Assembly (NCBI GenBank): GCA_024680675.1
Contig: JAILBX010000038.1
Coordinates: 1 to 41,939 of the forward strand
Length of the DNA: 41,939 bases
Direction of reading: 5' to 3'
Source of the DNA: Lachnospiraceae bacterium
GTDB taxonomy: Bacteria > Bacillota > Clostridia > Lachnospirales > Lachnospiraceae
Below, piece after piece: positions 3,075 to 32,279 of this stretch. The notes beneath the pieces were generated by a model, which did not search any database, was not told the DNA's origin, and was given only the letters and a program-made list of their open reading frames with translations. Position numbers and translations under genes: made by a program. Numbering within the stretch: the first letter of the stretch is position 1; every line of letters starts with the position of its first letter.

Positions 3075-4271
3075 ATGAAAAGAATAATATTATTTAAGGG
3101 AAACGGTATCTGTTATAATACCCTGAATATTTTTGCGGACATTGTTTCGGGAGAATTGAGTAAGTTGGGGATAGAAAGCGGCTTTGTGGATCTTTCTCTT
3201 CCTGCCGATGAGCTGGGGGACAACTTTGAGGATGAGGTTAAAAAGGGATGCGATGCATTTTTGGGCTTTAATATAGGCGATGTTCTTTTTGGTTGTGAAA
3301 ACCTTTTTAACTATTTAAAAAAGCCGGTATTTGACTGGATAGTCGATCACCCCTGTGAACATGCCCCGGTCATACAAAATAATATAAATGACTTCAATGT
3401 TATCTGCCTTGACAGGGATCATAAGATCTTTATCGAGAAATACCTGGAGGGGATAAATAAGGTGGCTTTTATACCCCTTGGAGGTTATTATGCTCCTGAA
3501 ACAGTAGCCGGACAGAGTGAGCTTCCCTTTGGCAGAGACCAGTTCGAAAGCAGAAGATATGATATATCCTTTACAGCAAGCCATATACCTTTGCCTGGAA
3601 TTATGAATAAGATCGATTCACTTCCGGACAGGATGAGAAAAATAAGCCTGACCATAATAGACTACTTAAAGCAGAATAGGGACTCTACAAATGAGGAGGC
3701 TCTTATCTATGCCTTAAATGAGGTCATTGGCACAAAGGATGTGGGAAATGAGATTATAAGGAAAATAGGATTTTATACAAAAACCGCCCTGTTTTACATG
3801 AGACAGTATGTAAGAGAAGAGTTTGTTAAAAATCTTATAAAATCGGGAGTAGAAGCCCACCTCTTTGGAGTAGGCTGGGAGGAGCTTGAAGGTGAGGGCC
3901 TTGGCAATATTATAATCCATGCCCCTATAAGCTATGAGGAAACAAGCCATATTGCATATGATTCAAGGATATCAATAAATATCCTTCCCTGGTTTAAAAA
4001 CGGCTTACATGACAGGATACCTACTTCAATGCTGAAGGGATCTGCGGTGTTTACTGATACTAACAAATATATTAATGAGGATTTCAGTCTGGCAGAGGAC
4101 AGGGAGCTGATCACCTTTGATATGAAGGATCCGGAAAGCGCTCCGGCTATACTTGAAGCTTTTGCCAAAGACAGGGATAAGCTTTATGATATTGCAGTAA
4201 GAGGAAGGAAAAAGGCAAAGGAAAGATTTGGATGGAACAGCAGGGTAAGAGAATTTCTTTCACTGCTTTGA
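3075..4271 (+). CDS. CgeB-like glycosyltransferase (GT1/GT4 fold)
   Basis: A 398-residue cytoplasmic glycosyltransferase of the CgeB/DUF3880-type group. The N-terminal half shows alternating beta-strand/helix segments and a motif resembling the DWIVDHP region of this family. The C-terminal half carries the Glyco_trans_1_2-like part (about 245-398), with HAPISYEETSHIAYDSRISIN, then RIPTSMLKGSAVFTD and the closing RERF-W-SR pattern. Such proteins glycosylate spore-surface or flagellar proteins or build surface glycans; donor and acceptor are not predictable. It is the first gene of a five-gene unit, and its stop codon lies just before the next start (4280). A paralogue of the same type is at 9583-10782. 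Confidence 0.8.
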   Translation: MKRIILFKGNGICYNTLNIFADIVSGELSKLGIESGFVDLSLPADELGDNFEDEVKKGCDAFLGFNIGDVLFGCENLFNYLKKPVFDWIVDHPCEHAPVIQNNINDFNVICLDRDHKIFIEKYLEGINKVAFIPLGGYYAPETVAGQSELPFGRDQFESRRYDISFTASHIPLPGIMNKIDSLPDRMRKISLTIIDYLKQNRDSTNEEALIYALNEVIGTKDVGNEIIRKIGFYTKTALFYMRQYVREEFVKNLIKSGVEAHLFGVGWEELEGEGLGNIIIHAPISYEETSHIAYDSRISINILPWFKNGLHDRIPTSMLKGSAVFTDTNKYINEDFSLAEDRELITFDMKDPESAPAILEAFAKDRDKLYDIAVRGRKKAKERFGWNSRVREFLSLL

Positions 4272-4279
4272 GGATAAAT

Positions 4280-7200
4280 ATGAGTAATAAACTGGACATA
4301 GAAGAATACAGAAAGCTTTGGGAAAGGGATAAGGACTATACTCCCGGCAAGAAGATCATTATAGTTATAGTATCCTTTAATTGTGAGCATCTTATGAAGG
4401 AAAATATAAATAGCATAAGAGCCACCCTTCCGAAGGAATGCTATAAAATAGTGGTGGTGGACAATGCTTCTACAGATGGTGTAGGAAGGTATCTTTCTGC
4501 GCAGGAGGATATTCTTCTTATAAAAAACCGGGAAAACGTGGGCTTTGGTCCTGCCTGTAATCAGGGAGTAAGGGCTACCCTGGGAAGTGAGCTTGAAAAT
4601 AGTGACATATTACTTTTAAATAACGATACAAGGCTTGCACCGGCCTCTCTTTATTATCTTATGAAGGCATTATACGAGGATGAGGCCACAGGGGCAGTGG
4701 GAGGAGTATCCAATTACGCCGGTAACAGGCAGCAGCTGGAGCTTTATTTTGACAGGGCTGAAAAATACATTGAGTTCTCTGAGGTAATAAACACTGAAAA
4801 GGAAGAATGCCTTGATGAGAGAGTAAGACTTTCAGGTTTCTGCATGCTCATAAGAAGGAAGCTCTGGGACGATATCGGAGGCTTTGATGAGGATTTTTCT
4901 CCGGGATATTTTGAAGATGATGCTTTATCCATGGAGATACTTAAAAGGGGCTTCAGGCTTAAGGTGGTAAAAAACAGTTTTATTTATCATGCCGGAAGTC
5001 AGAGCTTTATAAAGACCGATAACTATGAAGAGCTTTTAAAGGAACACAGGGAGCTTTTTATAAAGAAATACGGATTTGATATAATAGATTGCGCTTATGG
5101 GGATGAGGTCATACTTTTTAAGCTTCCCTATAAGAAGGAGGATAGCTTCAGAGTTTTGGAGCTTGGCTGCAAATTGGGAGCAGATCTTAAATCTATAAGG
5201 AACCGCTATGGAAATGCTTATCTTGCAGGAATAGAATCGGATCCCGCAATTTACGAGATCGCAAGACATACGGAAAATGTTTTTCCTTCTGTAAGAGCCT
5301 GTAAGGAAGGGGCAGGAGATGATAAATTCAATGTCCTGATAATTGATCCTTTGCTAATAGCAAAAATGTCCGGGGAGGAAAAGGCGGAGCTTGTGGGCTT
5401 GTGCGATCCAACTGCTCTTTTGATAACAAAAAATCCTGTATATGAAAACTTTCCTTTCAAGGATGTGAAACTGATAATATGGGATCTGGATGATACCTTC
5501 TGGAAGGGGACTTTAAGCGAAGAGGAGATAGTTCCCATCCCCGAGAATATAGAACTTGTAAAGCAGCTTACTGATAATGGGATCATAAATTCAATTTCAT
5601 CTAAAAATGATGAAGCTCCTGCTGTTTCAAAGTTAAAGGAAGTGGGGATTTATGATCATTTTGTTTTTAATAATATAAACTGGGATGATAAAGGGACACA
5701 GATAAGAGATAAGATTAAAAGAATGGGGCTTAGACCTGAGAATGTTCTCTTTATAGATGATAATGTGAGAAATCTTGAGGAAGCAAGGTATATATCAAAG
5801 GATCTGCTTACGGCAACTCCGGACATACTTTTGTATCTTGTGAATTTTGTTATTAAGCTTCATGGAAGTGATCGCTCTCATTCAAGGCTTGATCATTATA
5901 AAATCCTTGAAAGCAAGTCAATAGCCATGGATAAGAGCCTGTCAAAGGAGGAATTTCTTTATGACAGTGACATCCATGTTACCATTGATAAAAACTGCCT
6001 TGAAGAGCTTGACAGGATCCATGAGCTTTGTATGAGAACAAATCAGTTAAACTATACAAAGAACAGGGACGATAAGGAGCTGCTTACCAGATTTATAGTA
6101 AATGACTGGAATGATTCGGCTTATGTAAGGGTCAGAGACAGGTTTGGTGATTACGGTATAGTGGGTTTTTACTGTTTTAATAAAAGAGAAAAGAAGGTAG
6201 AGCACTTTTTCTTCTCTTGCAGGGTTCTTGGTATGGGGATCGAGCAGTATGTTTATCAGAAGCTTGGATGTCCCGATATGGAGATAAAGGAGCCTGTTGC
6301 AAGTCCTCTTTCAAAGACCTTAAAAACTCCCTGGATAAAGGAAGACAAGGGTCTTGAGATAAAGGAGGATAAGGTCAGAGACTCCAGAGTAAGAGTCCTT
6401 TTAAAGGGACCTTGCGATATGAGTGCCATAGAGCCATACCTTACGGGAGGAAATATAACCACAGAATTCAACTATATAAATGAAAAGGGTTTTGTGACAA
6501 CAGGGCAAAACCATACCATGCATATATATGAGAGTATGGAGCTTTCCGATAAGGAGATAGATGAAATACTAAAAGAGGTTCCCTTTATCATAAGAGGAGA
6601 CTTTGAGACCAAGCTTTTCAGCGAAGAGTACAGTATAATCTGCTTAAGCCTCCTGCAGGATCTTAGCGCTGGACTCTACAGAAACAGGGAAAGCGGGGCA
6701 TATATAAGCTTTTCAAGTAAAAACTATGACCTTACTTCTGAAAAATTCAGGGAAAGATTTATAAATAAAAGCATACAGGGTCATGATTTTGACTTTACCG
6801 AAGAGATAATAGACAGATTTTCACAAAAATGGGAGTTTATCGGCAACACACCAATAGATCTTCTCCTTCGTAATCTGGATTTCATTTATGATAATGTTAA
6901 GGGTAATCCAATATTCCTTATCATACTTGGCAGCGAGGTGGATTACGAGGGCTATAATGAGGAGTTTGACGGACTCTGTGAGATATACAGGGAGGTTAAT
7001 CCTATAATAAGAGCCTTTGCCGAGGATCATGACAATGTCAGGATAATAGATCCAAGTGACTATATTCATTCTCAGGAGGATTTTAATGACTCCATCAACC
7101 ATTACAGCAGAAATGTTTACTATGAGATAGCAGGCAAAATATGTGAGTATATAAACGAGGCAGTTGAAAAGCTTGCAAAAGAACAGGGAAGAGTAAAGTA

Positions 7201-8113
7201 TACAGACACCTTTGAAAAAATAGATATTCCCAAGGACTTTTACAGGCCTGAGAAGAGATCCGGCTTCCTTGTGGATGAGACAAGGAAAAAAATATGGGCT
7301 GTTCAGCTGGATCTGGTAAAGGAATTTGACAGGGTATGCCAAAAATACGGCCTGACCTACTATATGGATAACGGAACACTTCTGGGTGCCGTAAGACATG
7401 AAGGCTATATTCCCTGGGATAATGACATTGATCTGGTTATGATGAGGCCTGATTTTGACAGGCTTAAGAAGCTTGCAGACCGGGAGTTTACGGAGCCCTA
7501 TGGTTTTCAGGTTTCAGAGGATGTGGAGGGAATGGTCTATTTAAATGCCTTTGGGCGTCTCAGGAATGCCAATACCTCTGCAGTGGAGTTTTATGATGCT
7601 CCAAGAGCCAGGAACCAGGGAATATTTATTGATATTTTTGTTTTTGATGATGCCGGGGGTGACGGCAATGAGTCGGAAGTAAAATATAATATGAAGCTGG
7701 AGCTTTGGATCGCCTGTACCAATCCGGAGCTTTTGAGGGAAATGGCAGCAGGGGGTCAGACCAACCTTGACAGGGATTCTGTTTATAAGCTTTTAGAGCT
7801 GCCGGTTATGGAGAGAGTGGATACCTATGAAAAGTTCTGTCTGGAAAATTTCGGCCTCTCCACTAATATAAAGGTGCTGCAGGATCATACTCCGCCTATG
7901 CCAAGATCTTATTTTGACGGGGTTATCTACCTGCCCTTTGAAGGCTTAAGGCTTCCTGCACCTGTTAAGTATGACAGTGTTTTAAAAGCCAGATACGGAA
8001 ACTATATGAAGCCCGTTATGGCTCCCTCCCAGCATGAGGATATAGAAATGGATCCTCTGCATCCATATTATCTAAAGCTATGGCAGCATAACTCTCAGAC
8101 AGAAGAAAGGTAA
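4280..8113 (+). CDS. Giant fusion: GT2, HAD-IIIC/FkbH-like, SGNH-like, LicD
   Basis: A 1277-residue cytoplasmic multi-domain enzyme. The ATG at 4280 is chosen because TGAGGA precedes it; an upstream frame extension would overlap the previous gene. Domains in order: GT2 glycosyltransferase (about 24-285; DNAST at 61, NND at 114-116, FEDD at 211-214); a degenerate class I methyltransferase-like segment (about 288-390; ELGCKLG at 294); a HAD-IIIC/FkbH-like domain (about 396-535; WDLDDT with Asp402 and Asp404, SSKNDE, IDDN) followed by a GNAT-like part to about 665; an SGNH-hydrolase-like region (about 700-970; DSINH at 937-941); and a LicD nucleotidyl/phosphotransferase domain (about 1000-1277; DNDID at 1047-1051). 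FkbH-like proteins activate glyceryl groups, and LicD family members attach phosphocholine or related groups to surface glycans. The combined reaction is inferred: sugar addition plus decoration with acyl or phospho groups. No acyl carrier protein is visible nearby. Confidence 0.85.
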   Translation: MSNKLDIEEYRKLWERDKDYTPGKKIIIVIVSFNCEHLMKENINSIRATLPKECYKIVVVDNASTDGVGRYLSAQEDILLIKNRENVGFGPACNQGVRATLGSELENSDILLLNNDTRLAPASLYYLMKALYEDEATGAVGGVSNYAGNRQQLELYFDRAEKYIEFSEVINTEKEECLDERVRLSGFCMLIRRKLWDDIGGFDEDFSPGYFEDDALSMEILKRGFRLKVVKNSFIYHAGSQSFIKTDNYEELLKEHRELFIKKYGFDIIDCAYGDEVILFKLPYKKEDSFRVLELGCKLGADLKSIRNRYGNAYLAGIESDPAIYEIARHTENVFPSVRACKEGAGDDKFNVLIIDPLLIAKMSGEEKAELVGLCDPTALLITKNPVYENFPFKDVKLIIWDLDDTFWKGTLSEEEIVPIPENIELVKQLTDNGIINSISSKNDEAPAVSKLKEVGIYDHFVFNNINWDDKGTQIRDKIKRMGLRPENVLFIDDNVRNLEEARYISKDLLTATPDILLYLVNFVIKLHGSDRSHSRLDHYKILESKSIAMDKSLSKEEFLYDSDIHVTIDKNCLEELDRIHELCMRTNQLNYTKNRDDKELLTRFIVNDWNDSAYVRVRDRFGDYGIVGFYCFNKREKKVEHFFFSCRVLGMGIEQYVYQKLGCPDMEIKEPVASPLSKTLKTPWIKEDKGLEIKEDKVRDSRVRVLLKGPCDMSAIEPYLTGGNITTEFNYINEKGFVTTGQNHTMHIYESMELSDKEIDEILKEVPFIIRGDFETKLFSEEYSIICLSLLQDLSAGLYRNRESGAYISFSSKNYDLTSEKFRERFINKSIQGHDFDFTEEIIDRFSQKWEFIGNTPIDLLLRNLDFIYDNVKGNPIFLIILGSEVDYEGYNEEFDGLCEIYREVNPIIRAFAEDHDNVRIIDPSDYIHSQEDFNDSINHYSRNVYYEIAGKICEYINEAVEKLAKEQGRVKYTDTFEKIDIPKDFYRPEKRSGFLVDETRKKIWAVQLDLVKEFDRVCQKYGLTYYMDNGTLLGAVRHEGYIPWDNDIDLVMMRPDFDRLKKLADREFTEPYGFQVSEDVEGMVYLNAFGRLRNANTSAVEFYDAPRARNQGIFIDIFVFDDAGGDGNESEVKYNMKLELWIACTNPELLREMAAGGQTNLDRDSVYKLLELPVMERVDTYEKFCLENFGLSTNIKVLQDHTPPMPRSYFDGVIYLPFEGLRLPAPVKYDSVLKARYGNYMKPVMAPSQHEDIEMDPLHPYYLKLWQHNSQTEER

Positions 8114-8118: not shown

Positions 8119-9582
8119 ATGGAAGAAAACGGTTATCCCTATGTGGAGGATAAGGAGCTTGGCAATGACCTTTTAAAAGCTCTGACTGACAATGAGGGCA
8201 AACGGAAAAAAATAATAATATGTTATATAAGCATAAGCGGCCTTGCACAAAATAAAGAGATAGCAATAGGGAAGCTTAGGGAGGTTTTTGCTGTATTTAA
8301 GGAAAATAATGAAGCTGTGGCTATGATCTATCATGCCGATCCGGCAATAAAGGAGTTTCTGCAGGGCTATGACAGACAGCTTTTTGAAGCCTACAGTGTC
8401 CTTATAGAGAGAATGAAAAGGGAAGCCTTCTTTATATATGATGAGAGTCTTGATAATCACTTCTTGGCAAGACTATGCGACGGCTTTTACGGAGATAACG
8501 GAAATCTGATGTATCATTGCATACAGGCAAAAAAGCCGGTTATGTGTATAAATTATGAGATAAGGGACGGCAGTGACCATGTTCTGGAGGATGAGGGGAC
8601 TTATCCTTTGGAGGATATGGAAGCTAAAGCATCGATGAATGGTAATAAGGGCTTAGGGTATGACAACTATGATGTGCTTATAGTTATAACCCTGGCGGAT
8701 TATGACAGGGTTAAAAGAAATTATAAAAGACTCTCTGAAAATATTCCGGGCAGAAGGATCATATTCATAGGAAGCAGGGAGGTTGGAGAAAGAGTCAGGG
8801 AGGACAATATTTCCGAAAGGTTTGACTTCATAGATGAAAATGACCTTATACCCTATGAAAATGTAGAAAGGGTAATGAAGGAAATCCTTAAGGTGGATGA
8901 GATACCCCGGGGAATGGTGGGCTGGTATTACCAGCAGTTTCTAAAGATGAGCTACTCTGATATCTGCAGGGATGACTATTATATGACCTGGGACGGAGAT
9001 ACTATCCCCTGCAGAAGCTTTTCCATGTTTGATAAGGATGGAACTCCCTTCTTTGATCTGAAGCAGGAGTATTGCGAAAACTATTTTATAACCCTTGGAA
9101 GACTCTTTCCGGGAATGAAAAAATGCATTGATAAGTCCTTTATATCGGAGCATATGCTTATGAAAAAGGAGTTTATGCTTGAGATGATAAGGGCTATTGA
9201 AGGGGATGAAAGGCTATGCGGCAGTAAATACTATGAGAGGATACTCCGCAGCATAGACATTGATAAGATGAAGGCTTCAAGCTTTTCTGAATTTGAGACC
9301 TATGGAAGTTATGTTTCTCTTAAGCATTTTGGAGCCTATAAGCTCAGGGACTGGCATTCCTTCAGATACTGCGGAAACTTTTTTGATCCGGATACTATCA
9401 CCGAAGAGGATTTTGAGTGGCTTTCCAAGGACTTTGAAGCGGTTTCCTTTGAAAAGAGAGCAAACAGAACTCCGGAGTCCATGGCCATCTTTACCAATCC
9501 CAAGTACAGAGCCAGGCTAAGTGCGAGACAGATAGTTGAAGCCATTCAGGAGGAATCGGAAGGTTATAAGGAGGTATGGTAA
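8119..9582 (+). CDS. Two-domain glycosyltransferase-like protein (DUF6492-like)
   Basis: A 487-residue cytoplasmic protein starting five bases after the giant fusion gene. Residues about 30-175 resemble the C-terminal half of CDP-glycerol glycerophosphotransferase-like proteins of Lachnospiraceae, with the pattern ISISGL, FKENNEAV, FYGDNGNLMYHCIQ and KPVMCIN. The usual WWRPHP motif is replaced by MIYHADP, so this half may be a sensor or binding relic. Residues about 195-470 resemble the DUF6492 glycosyltransferase family: VLIVITLADYDRVKRNY, GWYYQQFLKMSY, the metal-site-like WDGDT, EYCENYF and SFISEHMLM. The assignment rests on remembered family patterns, not on a search. Its place between a LicD fusion and a glycosyltransferase supports a role in surface-glycan assembly. 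Confidence 0.65.
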   Translation: MEENGYPYVEDKELGNDLLKALTDNEGKRKKIIICYISISGLAQNKEIAIGKLREVFAVFKENNEAVAMIYHADPAIKEFLQGYDRQLFEAYSVLIERMKREAFFIYDESLDNHFLARLCDGFYGDNGNLMYHCIQAKKPVMCINYEIRDGSDHVLEDEGTYPLEDMEAKASMNGNKGLGYDNYDVLIVITLADYDRVKRNYKRLSENIPGRRIIFIGSREVGERVREDNISERFDFIDENDLIPYENVERVMKEILKVDEIPRGMVGWYYQQFLKMSYSDICRDDYYMTWDGDTIPCRSFSMFDKDGTPFFDLKQEYCENYFITLGRLFPGMKKCIDKSFISEHMLMKKEFMLEMIRAIEGDERLCGSKYYERILRSIDIDKMKASSFSEFETYGSYVSLKHFGAYKLRDWHSFRYCGNFFDPDTITEEDFEWLSKDFEAVSFEKRANRTPESMAIFTNPKYRARLSARQIVEAIQEESEGYKEVW

Positions 9583-10782
9583 TTGGGAGCTGACGCTTGC
9601 CTGAATATGGTGTTTTACAGATACGGATCCATATGCGAGCCTGATATGATAGATGCCTTTAAGTCTGCAGGACTTAAAGTTTTTGAAATAGATGAAGAAA
9701 TAAAAAATAAGGAAATACTTCCATCGAGACAGGTAGAGCTTGTGGACAGGGAAATAAGGAGACATGGACCTCTTTTTGTATTCAGTATAAATTTCTTTCC
9801 CGCTCTGGCGGAGATATGTTCCATTCATGGTACATTTTATCTGTGTCAGACAGTGGATTCTCCTGTTAATCAGCTCTTTTCCCGGTCAATAACAAAAAAA
9901 ACCAACAGGATCTTTTTATTTGACAAGGGACAGTACAGAAGGTTTCATGGCTACAATGAAGGGAGAATATTTCATCTTCCCCTCTCTGCAAATGTGGAAA
10001 GATATGACAGGGTTATATCTTCCATAGGAGAAGAGGACAGAAAAAAGTATTCAAATGACATAGCTTTTGTGGGATCCCTGTATTCTGAAAAAAACGACTT
10101 AAACAAGGCTACGGATATAAGTCCTTATACAAAAGGTTATATAGACGGCCTGATCAACAGTCAGAAGTCGGTTTACGGAGCCTTCTTTATAGAAGATGCC
10201 CTTAATGACAGGGTGATCAAGGAGCTTAAAGAAATATTTCCCGAGCTTTTCAGATTTGATAAGGCCATAGAGGAAACAGACAGCTATATTGCCGCAAACT
10301 CTCTTATAGCACCGGGAATAGCCGAAAGGGAAAGGGTAGAGACCCTTAATATGCTGGCAAAAAGCTTTAAGGTAACCTTATATACAAGAAGCGACAGAGG
10401 GGAGCTTTCGGGAGTTGATGTAAGAGGGGGTGTTTCCACTCATTTGGAAATGCCTAAAATCTTCAATCTTTCCAAGATAAATTTAAATATGACAGTCAGA
10501 TCCATAGAAAGCGGTCTGCCTCTCAGGATCTTTGATATAATGGCCTGTGGGGGCTTTGTAATAACTAACTATCAGGAAGAGCTTTCAGAGCATTTTGAAG
10601 TGGGAAAAGAGGTGGAAATGTATTCCGATCCTTTGGAATTAAAAGAAAAATGTGACTACTATCTAAGACATGATGAGGAAAGAAGGAAGATAGCTCAAAG
10701 GGGCTATGAAAAGGTGAAAAATGAACATAGCTGTAAGAAAAGAGTAAAAGATATGATAGAAAGGGTGGTAAGTGATATATAA
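9583..10782 (+). CDS. CgeB/DUF3880-like glycosyltransferase, paralogue of 3075 gene
   Basis: A 399-residue glycosyltransferase with a TTG start directly after the previous stop codon. The start is supported by AAGGAGGT eight bases upstream; the first in-frame ATG (9607) has no ribosome site. The N-terminal half is DUF3880-like (FVFSINFFPALAEIC, YLCQTVDSPV, FLFDKGQYRRF). The C-terminal half has the Glyco_trans_1_2 pattern: a Lys/Leu-rich EMPKIFNLSKINLNM stretch, then LPLRIFDIMACGGFVITNY, and a terminal region that contains HDEERRKIAQRGYEKV. Family members act in flagellar, spore or surface glycosylation. The stop overlaps the next start by one base (TAATG), so translation coupling to the mutase gene is likely. 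Confidence 0.85.
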   Translation: MGADACLNMVFYRYGSICEPDMIDAFKSAGLKVFEIDEEIKNKEILPSRQVELVDREIRRHGPLFVFSINFFPALAEICSIHGTFYLCQTVDSPVNQLFSRSITKKTNRIFLFDKGQYRRFHGYNEGRIFHLPLSANVERYDRVISSIGEEDRKKYSNDIAFVGSLYSEKNDLNKATDISPYTKGYIDGLINSQKSVYGAFFIEDALNDRVIKELKEIFPELFRFDKAIEETDSYIAANSLIAPGIAERERVETLNMLAKSFKVTLYTRSDRGELSGVDVRGGVSTHLEMPKIFNLSKINLNMTVRSIESGLPLRIFDIMACGGFVITNYQEELSEHFEVGKEVEMYSDPLELKEKCDYYLRHDEERRKIAQRGYEKVKNEHSCKKRVKDMIERVVSDI

Positions 10783-11903
10783 TGGCAAAGTATGATTATC
10801 TTATAGTTGGGGCAGGGATATTTGGTTCGGTATTTGCATATGAAGCAGGCAAGGCTAATAAAAGGTGTCTGGTCATAGACAAAAGAGACCATATAGCCGG
10901 CAATATTTACACAAAAAAAATCGAAGGGATAAACGTTCATAAATACGGAGCCCATATATTCCATACAAGCAATAAGGATATATGGGACTACATGAATTCC
11001 TTTGTGGATTTTAACAGGTATACAAATTCTCCTCTGGCAAGGTATAAGGATGAATTATATAATCTTCCTTTTAACATGAATACCTTTCACGCTCTCTGGG
11101 GTGTAAGGACTCCCCAGGAGGCTAAAGCAAAAATTGAAGAACAAAAGGAAGAGGCTCTTAAGCTTATGGAGAAAAAGGGCATAAGGGAACCGGGAAACCT
11201 TAAGGAACAGGCTATATCCCTGGTGGGAAAGGATATTTATGAAAAGCTGATCGAGGGCTATACGGAAAAACAATGGGGGAAGAGGGCAACCGAGCTTCCG
11301 GCCTTTATAATAAAGAGACTGCCCGTAAGATTTACCTACGATAACAATTACTTTAATGATCTTTATCAGGGTATTCCCATAGGAGGTTATACCGGCATAG
11401 TTGAAAAAATGCTGGAGAATACAGAGGTAAGGTTGTCATGCGATTTCTTTGAAAACAGAGAAGAATATTTAAAGATAGCCGACAAGATAGTTTTTACCGG
11501 AATGATAGATGAATTTTACGATTACAGATTTGGAGAGCTTGAGTACAGAAGTCTCAGATTTGAAACGGAAACTCTTGATATGGAAAACTATCAGGGTAAT
11601 GCAGTAGTTAATTATACAGAGTATGAGGTACCTTATACCAGGATAATAGAGCATAAGCATTTCGAGTATGGCACTCAGGAAAAGACCGTAATAACCAGAG
11701 AGTATCCAAAAAGCTGGAAAAAGGGAGATGAGCCCTACTATCCCATGAATGATGAAAAGAACAATGCCTTATTTGCAAAATACAGAGAGCTGGCGGATAA
11801 GGAGGAAAGGGTTATTTTCGGAGGAAGACTCGGAGAATACAAGTACTACGATATGCATCAGGTTGTGGAAAGGGCTCTTAAGGCTGTAAACGAAGAGCTG
11901 TAA
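10782..11903 (+). CDS. glf: UDP-galactopyranose mutase
   Basis: A 373-residue flavoenzyme that interconverts UDP-galactopyranose and UDP-galactofuranose, supplying the five-ring sugar for surface glycans. The N-terminal FAD-binding Rossmann motif is GAGIFGS (residues 10-16). The family motifs HKYGAHIFHTSN, YTEKQWGKRATELP, RFTYDNNYFNDLYQGIP and the C-terminal GRLGEYKYYDMHQ are all present and the length is typical. It closes the five-gene operon and implies that the product contains galactofuranose, a sugar absent from mammals. The operon ends at the bidirectional hairpin at 11957-11999. Confidence 0.96.
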   Translation: MAKYDYLIVGAGIFGSVFAYEAGKANKRCLVIDKRDHIAGNIYTKKIEGINVHKYGAHIFHTSNKDIWDYMNSFVDFNRYTNSPLARYKDELYNLPFNMNTFHALWGVRTPQEAKAKIEEQKEEALKLMEKKGIREPGNLKEQAISLVGKDIYEKLIEGYTEKQWGKRATELPAFIIKRLPVRFTYDNNYFNDLYQGIPIGGYTGIVEKMLENTEVRLSCDFFENREEYLKIADKIVFTGMIDEFYDYRFGELEYRSLRFETETLDMENYQGNAVVNYTEYEVPYTRIIEHKHFEYGTQEKTVITREYPKSWKKGDEPYYPMNDEKNNALFAKYRELADKEERVIFGGRLGEYKYYDMHQVVERALKAVNEEL

Positions 11904-11956: not shown

Positions 11957-11999
11957 AAACCGGTAAGCACTGTATGAAAATACTTTTGCCTGCCGGTTT
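11957..11999 (-). terminator. Bidirectional terminator between glf and FliD-like gene
   Basis: AAACCGGTAAGCA (11957-11969) pairs with TGCCTGCCGGTTT (11987-11999) in 12 of 13 positions. On the minus strand the stem is followed by nine T, an excellent Rho-independent terminator. On the plus strand only a weak TTTA follows. The stop codon of the FliD-like gene (11998-12000) lies within the stem. Confidence 0.85.
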
Positions 12000-13308
12000 A
12001 ACAATATCCGCTGAATAACATTCCGGAATAATTACTTGTCACATAAGGTGCCGAGAAATTATGTCCGGGATTTTTATATTCCACTATCTTTCTATTGGTA
12101 TACTGCATGGGATCCAGAGCGATCTCTGAGGTCTTCTTAAGAATGGAATCAGCAAAATCCTTTATGGCCGAAAGCTTGTCAGTGGAGGATTCATCCTCCA
12201 ATAAGGCTGATTTGAATTTTTCGGTGTTAAAGGAAAGCTTGGCATCGGTGGAAAGATTTATTCCCAGATCCTCAAGCCCCTTGCTGAACCTGGTGGTCAG
12301 GGATTTCATTTCATTTACCAGGGTTTTTGAATAGGGCTGCTGCTCTGCATAGCGGGATGTATTATCAATAAAACCGTTATAGCCCTCAAGCAGCTTGTTA
12401 ACATTGTCTATAAGGGATTCCACATCCGTTTTAAATCCTATATTTACCTCTTCTCCTTCCGCGGTTGGAGCCACCAGAGTAAGATCCAGTATGTCATCTA
12501 CCGTAAAGTGATTGCCGGAAGCGCTTTTCTCATTTCCGTTTAAAGTAAATACTGCATTTTGGGGTGGAGCTGAAATATTGGACATACCAAGATAGTCAAC
12601 GATCCCACTTGCTTTGCTGGTTTTATTATCGGAAATCGAAAACTGAAGCTCTGAATCCTTCCTTGTTCCCGTTTCCTCAGAGCTGAGCTTAAGTGCAGTT
12701 CTGCCCTCTTCATCATATACAAGCTCGGCGCTGATCCCGATCTGAGCTCTTGTTATGAGCTTTTGAAGCTTATCCTGGATAGTTTTGTTGCTGTCATTTT
12801 CACCTATGTTAAACTGGAATTCGTAGTCTGTATCCTTTGAATGCAGATCAAAGGAATAGGTATCAGCCTCCAAAGGGATCTTTTCATCGGGAGACAAAAA
12901 GTTACCCGTATTTTCCTGCCTGCTTGCAAGCTGTTTGACGGAAAGACTGAATTCGCCTACTTCCTCTTCAGCTTTTTTATTTCCTATATATCCGGCTAAA
13001 ACCTTTGTTTCATCACTTGATGAAACGGTTTTCTTGGAAAGGAGATCCTCCTCATCCGAATGAGAAAGGGAAGCAATGGTATTTTTTAAACTCCTTGAGT
13101 TTTCCTTTAAATCTATAACATAGTTCTTTGTAGCTTCGCTGTCATCCAATAAAAAGAGAGGGGAATCTTTGCTTTTTTCGACTATAGAATTATAAACACC
13201 ACGCAGCTCACTCTTCTTATGCGTATCATACTTGGTATTAGAACGCATAGGACTGTAGGTGGTATTAATCTGGTTATATATGCTATTTAATACAGCTAGA
13301 TCTGCCAT
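11998..13308 (-). CDS. FliD-like flagellar filament cap / hook-associated protein 2
   Basis: A 436-residue protein. The ATG at 13308 is chosen over an upstream extension because AGGAGGGGCAAC precedes it directly. A coiled-coil N-terminal part (about 1-100) is followed by FliD-type central domains: FSLSVKQLASRQENTG, a YSFDLHS beta segment, a hook-IN-like stretch around TIQDKLQKLITRAQIGISAELV, and LKLSSEETGT. The C-terminal FliD_C-like part has NKLLEGYNGFID and LEDLGINLSTDAKLSFNTEKF. Length fits FliD, which caps the growing filament. It lacks the usual N-terminal FliD signature, and no flagellin, FliS or motor gene is nearby, so it may be a stand-alone surface protein. It faces the glycan operon convergently. 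Confidence 0.72.
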   Translation of the reverse strand: MADLAVLNSIYNQINTTYSPMRSNTKYDTHKKSELRGVYNSIVEKSKDSPLFLLDDSEATKNYVIDLKENSRSLKNTIASLSHSDEEDLLSKKTVSSSDETKVLAGYIGNKKAEEEVGEFSLSVKQLASRQENTGNFLSPDEKIPLEADTYSFDLHSKDTDYEFQFNIGENDSNKTIQDKLQKLITRAQIGISAELVYDEEGRTALKLSSEETGTRKDSELQFSISDNKTSKASGIVDYLGMSNISAPPQNAVFTLNGNEKSASGNHFTVDDILDLTLVAPTAEGEEVNIGFKTDVESLIDNVNKLLEGYNGFIDNTSRYAEQQPYSKTLVNEMKSLTTRFSKGLEDLGINLSTDAKLSFNTEKFKSALLEDESSTDKLSAIKDFADSILKKTSEIALDPMQYTNRKIVEYKNPGHNFSAPYVTSNYSGMLFSGYC

Positions 13309-13436
13309 GTTGCCCCTCCTTTCTTCCTTGAATGGATACACTTTGGCAAAATCAATTTCGCCTATCCGCTTGCAGGATCAGATCGGCCTTATCTGAAAAT
13401 GCAGTCGGAACGTGTGGGCATATTAAGACAATTTGG

Positions 13437-13682: not shown

Positions 13683-14651
13683 ATGATCAAAGATCAATGG
13701 TATGCCATATTATGGTCGAAGGAGCTTAAGGAAGGAAAGGCTGTTGGAGTAAAGAGATTTGGGGAAAAGCTGCTGCTTTACAGGGATGAGTCAGGCAGGG
13801 CAAACTGTGTGGCAGATGCCTGTGCTCACAGAGGCGCCAGCCTGTCAAAGGGATGTGTAAGATCGGGAAGGATCCAGTGTCCCTTTCATGGGATAGAATA
13901 TGGAAGAGACGGCAGCTGTGTATTCATTCCCTCGGAAGGCAGAGCTGCAGGGAATGACTATAAAAGATTTAAGCTTAAGTGCTATAAGACCTATGAAGCA
14001 GGGGATATAATCTTTGTCTGGTACGGAGAAGGTGAGCCTGAAGGCAAGCCGGATTATTTTGAGATCATTGAAGATAAAAGCTTTGTTTACAGCCATTTTA
14101 ATGACCACTGGGGAGTGGATTATTCAAGAGTAATAGAGAATCAGCTGGATGTATCACATCTGGCATTTGTACACAAAAGCACCATAGGAAGGGGAGGGAA
14201 AAGTCTGGTTAACGGGCCTAAGGTTATATGGCTTGATGAAAATACCCTGCAGACCAGCGCCAATAATGAAGTGGACAGGGGACAGACGCCAAAAAGTGCC
14301 GAGGAAAGCATAATAAAGAATACCAATCTTACCTTTAAATTTCCCAATATGTGGCTGAATCATATTACAGACAAGATAATGGTGCTTGCTTTTTTTATAC
14401 CGGTGGATGATGAAAACAGTATAATAGCCCTGAGATTTTATAACAGGATCACGGGGATCAGAGCCATAGACAGCTTTATAGCCCTTTTTGGCAAATGGGC
14501 CAATAAGATTATCGAGCGCCAGGATAAAAGGATAGTTGAAACTCAGCTGCCTAAAAAAAGCAGCCTCAGAATGAATGAAAAGCTTGTCAGTGCAGACATG
14601 CCTATAATAAAGTACAGAGAAAGAAGAGAAGAGCTTATTAAAAAAGCCTGA
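13683..14651 (+). CDS. Rieske [2Fe-2S] ring-hydroxylating oxygenase-like protein
   Basis: A 322-residue oxygenase alpha-subunit-like protein. The Rieske cluster ligands are Cys47, His49, Cys66 and His69 in C-x-H-x16-C-x2-H. The mononuclear iron site has Asp156, His159 and His164 in the pattern D-x2-H-x4-H. This is the arrangement of VanA/pheophorbide-oxygenase-type Rieske non-haem enzymes, which use oxygen to hydroxylate or demethylate aromatic compounds. Length is near normal for the family. No reductase or ferredoxin gene is adjacent. A complete oxygenase in what looks like an obligate anaerobe is unexpected; it may use trace oxygen or act in another redox role. A lipid kinase follows 22 bases after its stop. 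Confidence 0.88.
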   Translation: MIKDQWYAILWSKELKEGKAVGVKRFGEKLLLYRDESGRANCVADACAHRGASLSKGCVRSGRIQCPFHGIEYGRDGSCVFIPSEGRAAGNDYKRFKLKCYKTYEAGDIIFVWYGEGEPEGKPDYFEIIEDKSFVYSHFNDHWGVDYSRVIENQLDVSHLAFVHKSTIGRGGKSLVNGPKVIWLDENTLQTSANNEVDRGQTPKSAEESIIKNTNLTFKFPNMWLNHITDKIMVLAFFIPVDDENSIIALRFYNRITGIRAIDSFIALFGKWANKIIERQDKRIVETQLPKKSSLRMNEKLVSADMPIIKYRERREELIKKA

Positions 14652-14673: not shown

Positions 14674-15594
14674 ATGAAGAAAGCGTTATTGATAATAAAT
14701 GTTACGTCCGGAAAAGCTCTGCTGTCTAAGAGACTTGCAGATCTGATCGAGTTTTTTATGCAATGCGGATATGAGATAAGGGTACATATAATCAATCCGG
14801 AAAAGGGTCTTACGTTAAAGCAGCTCAAGAAAGAGGAAGTGAAGGAATATGACCTTGTGGTCCTTGGGGGAGGAGACGGGACTCTTAACAGTTTTATAAA
14901 TTATTTAATGGAAATTGATGAAAGACCTGTGATAGGTTACCTTCCATCCGGAAGTACCAACGATTTTGCAAAATCCATCGGCATACCTGCGGATCTTAAT
15001 AAGGCCTGTAATGTTATAAGAAAAGGCGAACTCTTCACCTATGATATCGGCAGCTTTAACGACAAGTATTTTAATTATGTTGCCGCCTTTGGAGCCTTTG
15101 CGGAGGTCAGCTTTGCTACGGATCAGAACATGAAAAATGCCATAGGCTATGCTGCCTATGTTTTAAATGCCATTAAGGATATACCCCAGAGCATAGGTTA
15201 TTCAAAACATCTGCATATCGAAACAGACACAAAAACAATAGAGGGAGATTATGTGTTCGGAGCTGTGAGCAATTCGGTTTCCGTAGGAGGTTTAAAGCTT
15301 TACGGGAATACCCCTGTGGGGCTGGATGACGGCAAGCTTGAGCTCCTTTTGATAAAGACTCCCCAGGTTGTTACGGATTTTTCCTATATACTAAATGCAA
15401 TTAGTACAGGGGATCTCAATAATGAGTTTGTAAGTCTGATACAGATAAAGTATGCCAACATAAGCTCTGAAGAGGAGATCACCTGGTCTATAGACGGAGA
15501 GTTTGGCGGAAAATGCAGAGAAACCAAAATAGGTATCGTTGAAAAGGCCATAACAATAAAGTCCGGGCTGAAAGCAGTGAGAAAAAATAATTGA
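14674..15594 (+). CDS. YegS/DgkB-like lipid kinase
   Basis: A 306-residue diacylglycerol-kinase-fold protein. The ATP-binding motif GGGDGTLNSF (about residues 66-75) and the following PVIGYLPSGSTNDFAKSIG segment are diagnostic of the DAGK catalytic family. The C-terminal beta-rich domain, with DDGKLELLLIK and WSIDGEFGG, completes it. Members phosphorylate diacylglycerol or related lipids, recycling the lipid released in lipoteichoic acid synthesis (DgkB role), or act on other lipids. That substrate is inferred. It is probably cotranscribed with the Rieske gene, because there is only a 22-base gap and no promoter. Confidence 0.9.
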   Translation: MKKALLIINVTSGKALLSKRLADLIEFFMQCGYEIRVHIINPEKGLTLKQLKKEEVKEYDLVVLGGGDGTLNSFINYLMEIDERPVIGYLPSGSTNDFAKSIGIPADLNKACNVIRKGELFTYDIGSFNDKYFNYVAAFGAFAEVSFATDQNMKNAIGYAAYVLNAIKDIPQSIGYSKHLHIETDTKTIEGDYVFGAVSNSVSVGGLKLYGNTPVGLDDGKLELLLIKTPQVVTDFSYILNAISTGDLNNEFVSLIQIKYANISSEEEITWSIDGEFGGKCRETKIGIVEKAITIKSGLKAVRKNN

Positions 15595-18240: not shown

Positions 18241-18320
18241 AACGGCCATGGTTTAAGCTTTCAGGGAAGGATCAAATTTTATATCCTTTGGGATAAGGGG
18301 ATCTTATAAAGGTTTTGTTT

Positions 18321-19781
18321 ATGAAGAAGAAGTTTATTGTTATATTTTTTATATCCTTATTACTTATATCAGCCTTTTTGGGATGCAGGGAAGGTGACAG
18401 TGGTAAAGAGTCCCCTTTCAAGGTTGAAAAAAGAAGCGAAGGGGAAGGAGATATCCCTGTTATTTCCATGGAGGAAGATAAAAAGGATAAGGAGGAAGAG
18501 ACTTCGGAGCAGGAGCCTCCCCTTATAGTCGTAAATACAGAGGGGGATACTGAATATGAGCCTATAGATCTTGAACCTGAGGAATATCTGTGGGATTTTG
18601 AAAGCCGGATCTTTTCCAAGGAAACCGCAAGTGAGGAAGAAGCAGTCTTAGCCTTTGCCGGAGATATTTCCTTTGCAGAGGGATATAGCAATATGTCCAA
18701 GCTTCATGATAACAATGATGATATAAATACAGTTATAAAGCCGGAAGTTATGAAGGGGATAAAGGAAGCGGATATATTCATGGTAAATAATGAGTTCCCT
18801 TATAGTAACAGAGGCAGCAAAAATGAGGGTAAGACCTTTTCCTTTAGAGCAAGACCCGAAAGCGTGAGATTCCTAAAGGATATGGAGGTCGATATTGTTT
18901 CCCTTGCAAATAACCATGCCTTTGACTATGGGGAGGAGGCTCTTATTGACTCCATGGATATACTAAAGGAAGCAGATATTCCCTTTGTTGGAGCGGGACA
19001 CAATATATCAGAGGCTATGCAGCCTGTTTATTTTAAGGTGAATAAGAAGCTTTTGGCCATAACCTCTGCAACTCAGATAGAAAGGACAGGGAACCCGGAA
19101 AGTAAGGAGGCTACTGAGAGCTCGGCGGGAGTTTTAAGAACTTTAAATGCCGAAAAAATGGTGAAATGCATTAAAGAAGCAGAGGAAAAAGCTGATTTTG
19201 TCATTGTTTTTGTCCACTGGGGTTCTGAGAACACAGATCTGGTAGAGGCATCTCAGAGAGAGCTTGCAAAAAAGTATGTTGAAGCCGGGGCTGATGCGGT
19301 GATAGGCGCCCATCCCCATTGTCTACAGGGTATAGATTATGTGGAGGGGGTTCCTGTTTTTTACAGTCTTGGTAATTTCTGGTTCAATTCCAGAAGGGTG
19401 GATACCGGTTATCTTAAACTGACGCTTAATACAAGCGGGGAGGATTGCTCCATAAAGGAGCTTAGATTTGTTCCCTGCATACAGAACGGTCTGACCACAA
19501 GCCTTGCAAATGAGGATGAGGCGAAAAGGATCTGTGAATATATACAGGGCATTTCAAATCATGCAAGTATTTCCCAGGATGGAGTCATAAGCTACTCGGA
19601 GCAGGATAATAATATTCAAAATGGACAGAACACATCTCCTTCCAAGGATTTTATAAAGAAACAGGATGAAGTGCCGGAGAACCAGGAAAATCCGGAGGGA
19701 CTATCGGATCCTGCAGCGCTTTTAAATCAGCTGCCTCTTCCGGAAGGAACTGCTGATGAGACTATAAGCCAGGGACAATAG
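18321..19781 (+). CDS. CapA-family metallophosphatase-like lipoprotein
   Basis: A 486-residue secreted protein. A signal peptide ends in a lipobox-like AFLGC, followed by an acidic Glu/Asp/Lys linker to about residue 105. The CapA/PgsA-type calcineurin-like domain (about 110-400) shows FAGDIS (Asp115), NNEFP, SLANNHAFDYG (His199), VFVHWGSEN, GAHPHCLQG and YSLGNFWFN. A Gln/Pro/Glu-rich tail follows. CapA proteins take part in poly-gamma-glutamate or polysaccharide capsule assembly, but most family members are uncharacterised and no capB/capC is present. The ATG at 18321 has AAAGG eight bases before it; a TTG two codons upstream is possible. It sits unusually between rplA and rplJ, behind a terminator. 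Confidence 0.88.
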   Translation: MKKKFIVIFFISLLLISAFLGCREGDSGKESPFKVEKRSEGEGDIPVISMEEDKKDKEEETSEQEPPLIVVNTEGDTEYEPIDLEPEEYLWDFESRIFSKETASEEEAVLAFAGDISFAEGYSNMSKLHDNNDDINTVIKPEVMKGIKEADIFMVNNEFPYSNRGSKNEGKTFSFRARPESVRFLKDMEVDIVSLANNHAFDYGEEALIDSMDILKEADIPFVGAGHNISEAMQPVYFKVNKKLLAITSATQIERTGNPESKEATESSAGVLRTLNAEKMVKCIKEAEEKADFVIVFVHWGSENTDLVEASQRELAKKYVEAGADAVIGAHPHCLQGIDYVEGVPVFYSLGNFWFNSRRVDTGYLKLTLNTSGEDCSIKELRFVPCIQNGLTTSLANEDEAKRICEYIQGISNHASISQDGVISYSEQDNNIQNGQNTSPSKDFIKKQDEVPENQENPEGLSDPAALLNQLPLPEGTADETISQGQ

Positions 19782-29226: not shown

Positions 29227-30402
29227 TCATTTCCAGGCTCCGAAGAAGCCTTTTTTCTCAGGTGCTGCAGTGCCAGCCGAAGAAGCTGTCTGACTGCCTG
29301 TATAGCCTGGCACTGTTGTATTTGTGCTCATCTTATTTGCATAATAGAGCTTATTTGATAGATTTTCCGGATTTGTTGTAAAGGAATAAGCGGTTTTTTC
29401 ATCTATCTTGCCTGCTTTTATCAGGTTCATAAGGCTTGTATTCATAGATATCATACCATCAACAGAGGAGGTGTCTATGATAGAGTCGATACTTTGGATC
29501 TTCTGGTCTCTTATGTTTGTTCTGATGGCAGGCGTCAGAGTCATTATTTCAAAGGCCGGAGCGATACCGCCGCCTATTGTGGGTATGAGCTGCTGGGAGA
29601 CTACTGCCTGAAGGACCATAGAAAGCTGTATATAGATCTGATGCTGCTGGTTGGGAGGAAAAGCATCAATAATACGCTCTATGGTATTTGCCGCACCTAT
29701 GGTATGAAGGGTGGAAAGGACAAGATGTCCGGTTTCGGCAGCCGTCATAGCAACGCTTATGGTTTCTGAATCTCTCATTTCTCCTAAAAGAATTACATCG
29801 GGACTTTGCCTTAAGGAGGCTCTTAATGCGGTAATGTAGCTGTCTGTATCCGAAGCTACTTCACGCTGGGAAACAATGCTCATCTTATGCATATGAAGAT
29901 ACTCAAGAGGATCCTCCAGGGTAATTATATGGGCCTGTCTGGTGGAATTTATATAGTCTATCATACAGGCAAGGGTTGTGGACTTACCGGATCCCGCAGG
30001 TCCTGTTATTAGCACAAGTCCCTTTTTTCTATTGGAAAGATTTATGACATTTGCAGGTATCTCAAGATCCTCAGGGTTTGGTATATTAAAGTTAATAACA
30101 CGGATGACAGCAGAGAGAGAGCCTCTTTGCTTATAAGCCGATACTCTGTATCTTGCCACTCCCTTTAGGGCAAAGGAGAAGTCATCATCTCCGGTATTCA
30201 TAAGTTTTTTCATATCCCGGTTACCTGCCAGATCATAGATCGCTGTTATATATTCTGAGCATTGGGCAGGCATAAGCTTACATTCATCGGTCTGTTCCAT
30301 TTTACCGTTGGTACGATAGGTAAGCGGTCGTCCGGCTACAATAAAGATATCAGATGCTTTGCCTTCAAGAGTCACCTTGGATAATATATCTGTAATAGCC
30401 AT
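29227..30402 (-). CDS. pilT: PilT-like type IV pilus ATPase
   Basis: A 391-residue hexameric ATPase of the PilT/VirB11 family. The N-terminal domain has SDIFIVAGRPLTYRTNGKM. The ATPase core has Walker A GPAGSGKSTT (Lys140), the Asp box ITLEDPLEY, Walker B VILLGEMRDSET and the His box GHLVLSTLHT. An AIR-type motif (PAIRTNIRDQ) supports PilT rather than PilB. The C-terminal tail is Ala/Ser/Gly-rich. PilT retracts type IV pili at the inner membrane. It is the last gene of the operon and the only motor ATPase present in it. AGGAGG precedes the start. Confidence 0.92.
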   Translation of the reverse strand: MAITDILSKVTLEGKASDIFIVAGRPLTYRTNGKMEQTDECKLMPAQCSEYITAIYDLAGNRDMKKLMNTGDDDFSFALKGVARYRVSAYKQRGSLSAVIRVINFNIPNPEDLEIPANVINLSNRKKGLVLITGPAGSGKSTTLACMIDYINSTRQAHIITLEDPLEYLHMHKMSIVSQREVASDTDSYITALRASLRQSPDVILLGEMRDSETISVAMTAAETGHLVLSTLHTIGAANTIERIIDAFPPNQQHQIYIQLSMVLQAVVSQQLIPTIGGGIAPAFEIMTLTPAIRTNIRDQKIQSIDSIIDTSSVDGMISMNTSLMNLIKAGKIDEKTAYSFTTNPENLSNKLYYANKMSTNTTVPGYTGSQTASSAGTAAPEKKGFFGAWK

Positions 30403-30417
30403 TTTTATCCTCCTTTT

Positions 30418-30930
30418 TTATTCAAAAGTAACCAGATTCATATTATTGTCCCCATCCTTTTTTGAATCATCCACCCATTCGGGATTTGCTTCAGTACTAT
30501 AAGATTGGATATGGAAGACGGAATAGTCTCCGCTATGAGGGTAATTAACCTGTAAAACAACCCTTAAGTTCTGTCTGTCATTTACGGGAAGGGTAAAGTA
30601 TAGGTTTAGTCCTTCATCCTCATATAGATTGTAGAAGGAATCCTGGGAATTATTATCATATTTGGAAAGAACTGCCTCGTAATATTCTTCTTCATTTTTA
30701 CTTTCCTTTGCTATCTCAGTGAGCTCATTGTGGATCTGAACAAGCATGATATCGGCATTGCCGGCGGCACGGTAGTATTCCTTTGTTTTTTCGGCCCCCT
30801 GCCTGCTTAAAAGATTGTCTGTGTTGGCACTTAGAAAGGATAATCCTGCAAAGGTGACCATACAAAGTATAACAAAGGCTGAGAGAACTGATGAGGTACC
30901 TATATTCATTCCGCCTGAAAATTTTTTCAT
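30418..30930 (-). CDS. Small membrane protein of the pilus-like operon (DUF4860-like)
   Basis: A 170-residue protein with one N-terminal membrane helix (about 12-34; SSVLSAFVILCMVTFAGLSFL), preceded by KKFSGGMNIG. The rest is an extracellular, acidic, Tyr-rich domain with LYFTLPVNDRQNLRVVLQVN. It has no canonical prepilin Glu5. I think the family is DUF4860, but this is from memory. It sits between the pseudopilin-like gene and pilT with 12- and 15-base gaps and a strong AAAGGAG site. Its likely role is a minor pilus subunit or scaffold. Confidence 0.65.
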   Translation of the reverse strand: MKKFSGGMNIGTSSVLSAFVILCMVTFAGLSFLSANTDNLLSRQGAEKTKEYYRAAGNADIMLVQIHNELTEIAKESKNEEEYYEAVLSKYDNNSQDSFYNLYEDEGLNLYFTLPVNDRQNLRVVLQVNYPHSGDYSVFHIQSYSTEANPEWVDDSKKDGDNNMNLVTFE

Positions 30931-30942
30931 AGCATACTCCTT

Positions 30943-31395
30943 TTATCCCTGGGATCCCTCTAAAAACTTTGTGGCTGTCAGATCATAAACGGTATCAGAA
31001 TCAAGAAGGTCGTAAATGATAACATGTATTGTTTCTATTGGGTCAGTAGGGAAAACATTCAGTGTTACATCGGCAACATAACGGGCATTGTCGTCAGTGG
31101 GAGAGCAGACAGTAAAATCCTTATCGTAGTAGATCTGAAGATAAGAATCATCCTCACCCAACTCCACATCCTTATAGAGAGCGGCTATGCTGTAAAGAGA
31201 TCCGTCTGTACCTCTCATTGCATCACATAGGGCTGCAGATATATTTATGGCAGAGTTCAGTTCCTTGGTTTCTTCATCTAAAAGGTGAGAGCTTACAAAG
31301 CACTGCACACAAATGGCTGATGCAATGGAAAAAAACATTATTGTAATGATCAGCTCCATAAGGAAAAGGGAGCTTCCCGATGTTTTCCTTTTCAT
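30943..31395 (-). CDS. Pseudopilin-like protein with degenerate prepilin signal
   Basis: A 150-residue protein whose N-terminus, SGSSLFLMELIITIMFFSIA, has the type IV pilin hydrophobic helix with a conserved Glu (residue 14). If the Glu is position +5 of the mature protein, cleavage would fall after Ser9, not after the usual Gly. A Gly stands at residue 7. The remaining domain is acidic and beta-rich. It probably forms part of the pilus-like fibre or tip complex. The AAGGAG site is seven bases before ATG. No prepilin peptidase gene is in the window. Confidence 0.7.
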   Translation of the reverse strand: MKRKTSGSSLFLMELIITIMFFSIASAICVQCFVSSHLLDEETKELNSAINISAALCDAMRGTDGSLYSIAALYKDVELGEDDSYLQIYYDKDFTVCSPTDDNARYVADVTLNVFPTDPIETIHVIIYDLLDSDTVYDLTATKFLEGSQG

Positions 31396-31405
31396 TATTT
31401 ACTCC

Positions 31406-31894: not shown

Positions 31895-31940
31895 TATATT
31901 CCCCTTTACAGATATTATTATTAAAGCAGAGCTAAAGCCT

Positions 31941-32279
31941 TTACTTTGTCAGATTTTTTTCTATTACCATGACAGATGGCATGATATTTGAAGCCACAGG
32001 CTCATAGCTGATTATGTATTTATCATGGTCATAGGTAAGACCGTAGTGGCTCTCTATGTAGCTTAAGGAGGGAGGATAGATACCCTCTATGGCATAGCAG
32101 TGAACTATATCCTTGTTCAGCGCATTTTCAAGCATTTCCTTTTCATTGCTCAGGGAACTGCCTGAAAGATAATTAATACCTGCAATAAAAAGCAGGATGA
32201 CCAAAAGAAAGACGATTATTGAAAGGTTAGCAGATGTAAATAAACGTTTTGTCAGCTTTTGTTTACTGAATCTGTTCAT
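31941..32279 (-). CDS. Small membrane protein, unknown function
   Basis: A 112-residue protein. A basic N-terminus (MNRFSKQKLTKR) leads to one membrane helix (about 20-40; IIVFLLVILLFIAGINYL). The outer part, about 70 residues, contains GIYPPSLSYIESHYGL, a pattern seen in minor pilins and GspG/PulG-like C-terminal regions. No prepilin signal is evident. It follows the GspF-like gene by 16 bases with an AGAGGAG site, so it is probably a structural part of the pilus-like machine. Confidence 0.55.
   Translation of the reverse strand: MNRFSKQKLTKRLFTSANLSIIVFLLVILLFIAGINYLSGSSLSNEKEMLENALNKDIVHCYAIEGIYPPSLSYIESHYGLTYDHDKYIISYEPVASNIMPSVMVIEKNLTK

Follow-up and report, generated by a model that had tools for sequence, protein, structure and literature searches.

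What does a bacterial protein do that joins a family 2 glycosyltransferase (GT2) domain, an FkbH-like HAD domain, an SGNH-fold domain and a LicD domain in one polypeptide? The question is raised by a frame at positions 4280-8113 of contig JAILBX010000038.1 (assembly GCA_024680675.1) from a Lachnospiraceae bacterium, the whole stretch of which, 41,939 nucleotides, is referred to here as the window. We find that the main interest of this locus lies not in the length of the fusion but in its conserved HAD-GNAT-SGNH core, which contains two invariant cysteines and has no acyl carrier protein (ACP) gene close by. The protein is likely to act on a flagellin glycan, and its core probably transfers an acyl group to a sugar; the fuller explanation, a multi-step flagellin-glycan enzyme that would bring together a sugar, a small acyl group and a phospho-alditol, is one that we put forward tentatively. 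The parts of the protein are as follows.

4280..8113, + strand: whole fusion protein, 1277 residues in one frame
4355..5014, + strand: GT2 glycosyltransferase domain, residues 26-245 (Pfam PF00535)
5135..5455, + strand: methyltransferase-like short Rossmann piece, residues 286-392 (weak Methyltransf_25 matches in homologous segments)
5465..5791, + strand: HAD-IIIC (FkbH) domain, residues 396-504 (NCBIfam TIGR01686/TIGR01681; Foldseek matches to HAD phosphatases)
5792..6349, + strand: FkbH C-terminal part, residues 505-690, GNAT-like by family lore (TIGR01686 match to residue 662)
6218..6220, + strand: Cys647 of the SCR motif, common to canonical FkbH
6368..7204, + strand: SGNH-fold domain, residues 697-975 (AlphaFold model; Foldseek SGNH/GDSL matches)
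6413..6415, + strand: Cys712 (GPCD), on the loop that follows strand 1 (strand 705-709 of the model)
7100..7102, + strand: His941, on a loop of the model that precedes the last helix
7310..8110, + strand: LicD domain, residues 1011-1277, with D1047, D1049, D1051 and D1118 (Pfam 1.2e-34, residues 1020-1240)

The core is best described as one conserved enzyme. A contig scan gave 152 related stretches, the best 80 of which were taken forward, and 86 core frames were found, four of them partial and excluded. Among the 82 complete frames, the core (window residues 393-970) is a unit of ~600 residues that stands alone as a protein of 575-643 residues in 70 cases and is part of a fusion in 12, which rules out a joining of three unrelated middle modules; the domain reading of the original prediction stands, but its several modules are, in the middle of the protein, a single enzyme. 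Its holders include Bacteroidota, Bacillota, Gastranaerophilales, Knoellia, Acidimicrobiaceae, Desulfosarcina, Fibrobacter and others. Unchanged in all 82 sequences are the HAD residues D402, D404, T406, S441, K471, D493 and D494, C647 of the SCR motif, and, in the SGNH part, G710, C712, D713, G884, N907 and H941. The SGNH domain is among the best conserved parts of the fusion, with 81% and 73% identity to its counterparts at loci L038 and L183.

The HAD part matches Pfam Hydrolase/HAD at 1.1e-8 and the NCBIfam HAD-IIIC model at 42.6 bits (cut-off 35.75), and residues 396-662 score 152.4 bits with the FkbH model TIGR01686, whose cut-off is 146.65, a membership that is borderline because most of the kin scanned fall below that cut-off (three of nine pass, the rest scoring 128-143 bits). 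The GNAT-like part of the original prediction is thus covered by a family model but finds no separate fold support: all 50 Foldseek matches listed for a 590-residue three-domain model are HAD-type phosphatases. Pfam gives PF19040 at 0.033, under the recognition cut-off, for the SGNH part, and the AlphaFold model of residues 697-975 has a mean predicted local distance difference test (pLDDT) score of 95.1 and finds mainly SGNH/GDSL hydrolases and acyltransferases, the O-acetyltransferase OatA among them (E 0.012). In SGNH enzymes, the nucleophilic serine follows the first strand and the histidine precedes the last helix. The model places Cys712 just after the first strand and His941 between the last strand and the last helix, so that the two residues would occupy the nucleophile and histidine positions. 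PDB sequence searches gave no convincing match beyond HAD, LicD and GT2.

The fusion itself is real. Its 1277 codons contain zero internal stops; the longest possible frame begins at 4232, and the ATG at 4280 is favoured, as read by eye, by an AGGAT-type ribosome site ahead of it, shortly past the point (4271) at which the upstream gene stops. The original prediction had called for a search for the same domain order elsewhere and had named a fused assembly error as what could undo it; the complete order is found again in two further genomes, at L038 (identical in coordinates to G425) and L183/G434, with 74% and about 64% identity, and an assembly error is excluded because of this recurrence. 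GT2 and core occur together over about 950 residues in 7 of the 37 genomes of the window's genus, three of which (the window's, G425 and G434) also have LicD in the same frame. Pfam and NCBIfam profiles, the AlphaFold model and Foldseek together bear out the prediction of a single polypeptide with GT2, a degenerate methyltransferase-like segment, an FkbH-like HAD domain, an SGNH-like region and LicD. The upstream gene at 3075-4271, considered as a split-off N-terminus of the L038 protein, was rejected on finding no match between the two.

We then compared the core with canonical FkbH proteins, sampled in the window's family only (120 genomes, 26 loci), one locus of which, L149, gave no long frame; 24 canonical rows entered the tree. 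The two groups are alike in their HAD-IIIC residues (25/25 in canonical FkbH) and SCR cysteine (24/24 rows with a residue at that place), and the core is matched over 283 of the 323 positions of TIGR01686, the family of the FkbH/OzmB-type glyceryl transferase-phosphatases. A reference title describes OzmB as a bifunctional glyceryl transferase/phosphatase (PMC5318452). The core differs in its C-terminal SGNH domain with an invariant cysteine, in place of which canonical FkbH has an N-terminal part ahead of HAD that looks SGNH-like by eye alone and is without a conserved nucleophile. A tree of the HAD-GNAT part separates the 82 core rows from the 24 canonical rows at 100/100; it carries a long-branch warning, which counts against the explanation put forward here.

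The gene neighbourhoods differ as well. No ACP gene lies within 1.5 kb of the core in the DNA fetched for 85 loci, as judged with a home-made profile built from four seeds, one of which is contained in L162. These loci count the window once and include L075, L082 and L095, whose partial frames were left out of the 82; 67 have 1.5 kb on both sides and 18 do not (L009-L012 have flanks of about 1.4 kb or less, and L010 none). By contrast, an ACP lies within about 1.5 kb at 21 of the 26 canonical loci, or 20 of 25 once the seed-holding locus of the window's genome is set aside, and among loci of Lachnospiraceae whose two flanks each reach 1.3 kb or more the counts are 0/15 for the core and 20/25 for canonical FkbH (Fisher p 8e-7). 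The original prediction had remarked on the lack of an ACP nearby, and the same profile finds no ACP-like frame in the 41.9-kb window. We file the core as an apparent sister branch of FkbH, and not as canonical FkbH, because no ACP gene adjoins it.

These features lead us to a working mechanism. The GT2 domain would attach a sugar, and the HAD domain would load glyceroyl as a thioester on Cys647 from an acyl phosphate, for which 1,3-bisphosphoglycerate is the likeliest candidate. Glyceroyl would then move to Cys712 of the attached SGNH domain with no separate ACP, and Cys712, aided by His941, would acylate the sugar at a hydroxyl or an amino group. The LicD domain would contribute a phospho-alditol, either ribitol-phosphate or some other pentitol-phosphate, drawn from its cytidine diphosphate (CDP) form. 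A relay between two cysteines without an ACP is a plausible arrangement that we hold with some reserve. The notion that a single enzyme both attaches a sugar and decorates it, with which the locus was first described, is kept as the best explanation, its chemistry being our proposal.

Glyceroyl is probably the likeliest acyl group, by analogy with Campylobacter jejuni. Acyl carrier proteins are present in C. jejuni flagellin glycosylation, and we know of no fusion of its fkbH-type gene to GT2 or LicD. As far as the consulted parts of the sources go, a study of flagellar glycans includes cj1302, a gene with an fkbH domain, in one comparison with maf genes (PMC7099621), and C. jejuni flagellin bears pseudaminic acid in a form with di-O-methyl-glyceric acid (PMC3068675); we favour glyceroyl because of this pairing of a glyceric-acid-decorated flagellin sugar with an fkbH-type gene alongside maf genes, and cj1302 may itself be linked to that sugar. 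In C. jejuni, cj1302 is a separate gene, and the FkbH-type part of the window is fused.

Several observations weigh against the relay and against acyl transfer by the SGNH domain. The window's genome has 11 PP-binding places, and one ACP adjoins a separate canonical FkbH on another contig, so that an ACP acting in trans for the core is possible; ACPs are also found farther off in two core loci, at 2.4 kb in L077 and about 3.2 kb in L082. The Foldseek support for the SGNH fold is modest, with a best E of 5.2e-4, a single match at E 0.001 or better, large root-mean-square deviations and a template modelling (TM) score by target of about 0.5-0.57 for most SGNH matches, and the 50 matches listed also include a plant resistance protein domain (rank 2), FabI and an azoreductase. 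The serine nucleophile of the GDS block is absent, a cysteine standing there in all 82 core sequences, and so is the aspartate of the DxxH motif (no Asp at 938 in the 82 rows; Asp at 937 in 33 of them); because the usual Ser and DxxH Asp are lacking, the SGNH domain might not transfer acyl groups. OatA-type O-acyltransferases, which share the fold, differ from the domain of the fusion in these two respects and in acting outside the cell. We know of no established activity for any core protein found here.

In a rival reading the core works as canonical FkbH does: an unlinked ACP would be charged with glyceroyl or a similar acyl group, which the SGNH domain or another enzyme would take from it. 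FkbH proteins have been proposed to load ACPs, in the part of the source consulted (PMC7489565), and the conservation of C647 and the ACP genes elsewhere in the genome would both suit this arrangement. The ACP counts near core and canonical loci, the separate branch and an FkbH profile match that stops at position 285 of 323 speak against it, and we regard it as rather unlikely. Alternatively, the HAD part could be a phosphatase or a user of another acyl phosphate, and the SGNH part a deacylase or esterase that trims the glycan, as the phosphatases among the HAD matches and the esterases among the SGNH matches might suggest; the retention of the SCR cysteine and the other FkbH residues argues otherwise, a cysteine in place of serine is unusual in esterases, and this alternative seems unlikely to us.

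That the proposed relay enzyme serves a flagellin glycan is suggested by its surroundings in the window.

3075..4271, + strand: upstream glycosyltransferase-like gene (Glyco_trans_1_2)
8119..9582, + strand: DUF6492 protein (Pfam)
9583..10782, + strand: DUF3880/Glyco_trans_1_2 glycosyltransferase-like gene, a recurrent neighbour
10782..11903, + strand: UDP-galactopyranose mutase (Glf), near the fusion in L038 and L184 too
11998..13341, - strand: FliD-like flagellar cap protein (Pfam FliD_C, 6.1e-10), in the same place in L038 and also present in L184

The fusion is thus followed by DUF6492, the DUF3880 gene, Glf and a convergent FliD, an order that L038 repeats except for the place of the DUF3880 gene. 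Flagellin, FliD, FliW, CsrA, FlaG, FliS or Maf genes lie in the fetched flanks of 8 of the 12 near-kin loci (L049 with Maf alone), flagellin is encoded in all 12 near-kin genomes, and L185 and L186 adjoin genes read by eye as flgM, flgN and flgK. The original prediction made no mention of flagellin glycosylation, the setting to which FliD in the window, L038 and L184 and the eight near-kin loci point. Counting the other way, 4 of the 12 near-kin loci have no flagellar gene in their fetched flanks, and among far kin flagellar or Maf genes occur in the fetched flanks of 1 of 68 loci and in none of the other 67, a contrast that makes an unfair control because most far kin belong to lineages that we take to be non-flagellate. 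In Hymenobacter, a pseB-cluster gene stands head-to-head before the core in 16 of 19 loci, with pseC-, cytidylyltransferase- and pseG-type genes next in 15-17 of the 19 loci. Three loci also have a pseI-type gene no more than five genes away, the profile checks covering L098 (PseB, PseC, PseG, CTP_transf_3) and L107 (PseI); outside Hymenobacter the association of the core with pseudaminic acid genes is loose, which counts against our explanation.

The target could instead be another surface glycan, such as a capsule or cell-wall polymer, with the flagellar neighbours incidental. Glf, LicD and nonulosonate genes serve capsules too, many far kin lie among sugar and glycosyltransferase genes, and the near-kin loci with no flagellar gene in view would fit as well. 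This is improbable in our judgement, given the flagellar or Maf neighbours of the majority of near-kin loci and a Maf-type (PF01973) domain within the L010 frame itself.

The GT2 domain that would open the flagellin-glycan pathway proposed above is a clear one: Glycos_transf_2 matches residues 28-195 (E 1.2e-16, 61.6 bits against a cut-off of 23.3), and VVVDNASTDG, NNDT and EDD are, as we take them, GT2 motifs. The methyltransferase-like piece of ~107 residues between GT2 and HAD is matched at E 0.02 in the window (profile positions 1-41 of 97), and Methyltransf_25 is found at E up to 1 in 9 of 10 homologous segments (best 3.7e-5) with no match in L010 and L011. It is the least conserved part, its identity being 55% to L038 and 45% to L183 where the other catalytic domains reach 62-82%, and is probably dispensable for these two reasons. 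That the middle domains as a whole have decayed, leaving GT2 and LicD alone to matter, is highly improbable, since the decay suggested by this short, fast-evolving piece is contradicted by HAD, GNAT-part and SGNH residues invariant in 82/82 sequences and by the high SGNH identity to L038 and L183.

The GT2-HAD-GNAT-SGNH centre stays the same from one fusion to the next and its end modules are, as far as the predicted domains tell, exchanged, since LicD, DUF6492 or Maf-type ends differ among G424, L039, L040, L010 and L011. G424 retains the Glf, DUF3880 and FliD neighbourhood and has a DUF6492 C-terminus instead of LicD; DUF6492 is N-terminal in the L039, L040, L010 and L011 fusions and is also fused to the GT2-core protein in L184; and the Maf-type domain of L010 is C-terminal.

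In the LicD domain, the alignment partners of D1047, D1049 and D1051 are the FKRP residues Asp360/362/364 (construct numbering plus 40, anchored by the GGS motif), and D1118 corresponds by motif to Asp416; the four aspartates are unchanged in 11/11 distinct LicD rows. The domain thus resembles LicD/FKRP phospho-alditol transferases in its catalytic aspartates and, in kin, in CDP-pentitol-type gene neighbours: in L183 and L184, the roughly 5 kb ahead of the fusion on its upstream side contain an IspD/TarI-like gene, a polyol dehydrogenase gene and an Rpe-like gene, and in the window's genome IspD/TarI-like and polyol dehydrogenase genes adjoin a LicD gene. These neighbours make a pentitol phosphate our first guess for the LicD donor; that it is ribitol or another pentitol in CDP form we consider evenly poised, the TarI-like gene scoring under the NCBIfam cut-offs, and higher as IspD, which weighs against it.

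Rpe-like genes recur in the immediate or wider neighbourhood of the fusion, or next to LicD (L136 10841-11521, L183 8127-8804, L184 4880-5545, L185 11760-12422, L186 3408-4070 and L039 15206-15922), hinting at a pentulose-phosphate branch for a CDP-alditol. Two genomes of the genus, the window's own and G425, encode a LicD domain joined to a DUF6492-like end directly after flagellin genes (L133 2126-4114 and L188 1146-5257).

Among known systems, a further likeness is to the Clostridioides difficile type A and Pseudomonas aeruginosa b-type glycans, in which, according to the part of the source consulted, a single sugar on flagellin is further decorated through a phosphodiester, N-methylated threonine being added and no FkbH or SGNH part mentioned there (PMC11833859). 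A limited look at the open-licence literature found no account of this fusion or of HAD-GNAT-SGNH proteins as a class, and the text of a Shewanella sfm paper mentions neither FkbH nor an acyl carrier. A broader and more speculative proposal is that HAD-GNAT-SGNH proteins form an undescribed, carrier-protein-free acyl-activating branch, which would pass glyceroyl from 1,3-bisphosphoglycerate through C647 and C712 to a sugar, working as lone enzymes on surface sugars in many phyla and, in Lachnospiraceae, within modular flagellin-glycan megaenzymes with a swapped LicD, DUF6492 or Maf end. Were the relay true, FkbH chemistry would have a form that needs no carrier protein, a glycolytic intermediate would feed directly into the acyl decoration of surface sugars, and a family named in profile libraries just "FkbH domain" or "HAD-IIIC phosphatase" would gain a testable role. 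Swapped end domains would account for part of the flagellin-glycan diversity of gut Lachnospiraceae.

The window holds further genes of note. A Rieske [2Fe-2S]/VanA_C oxygenase-like protein is encoded at 13683-14651 on the + strand (Pfam 8.5e-24), in a Lachnospiraceae-type genome in which one would not expect oxygen-using enzymes, and a DAGK-type lipid kinase (14674-15594) comes next. A PGA_cap protein (18315-19781, +) lies between the ribosomal L1 and L10 genes, and L038 has, by eye, a 516-residue frame before an L10-like gene. Between the RNA polymerase beta' and S12 genes, a minus-strand cluster (29227-34442) encodes a T2SSE ATPase, DUF4860, T2SSF and a transglutaminase-like protein, and the protein encoded at 39276-40391 (+) has about 190 additional residues ahead of its glutathione-peroxidase domain.

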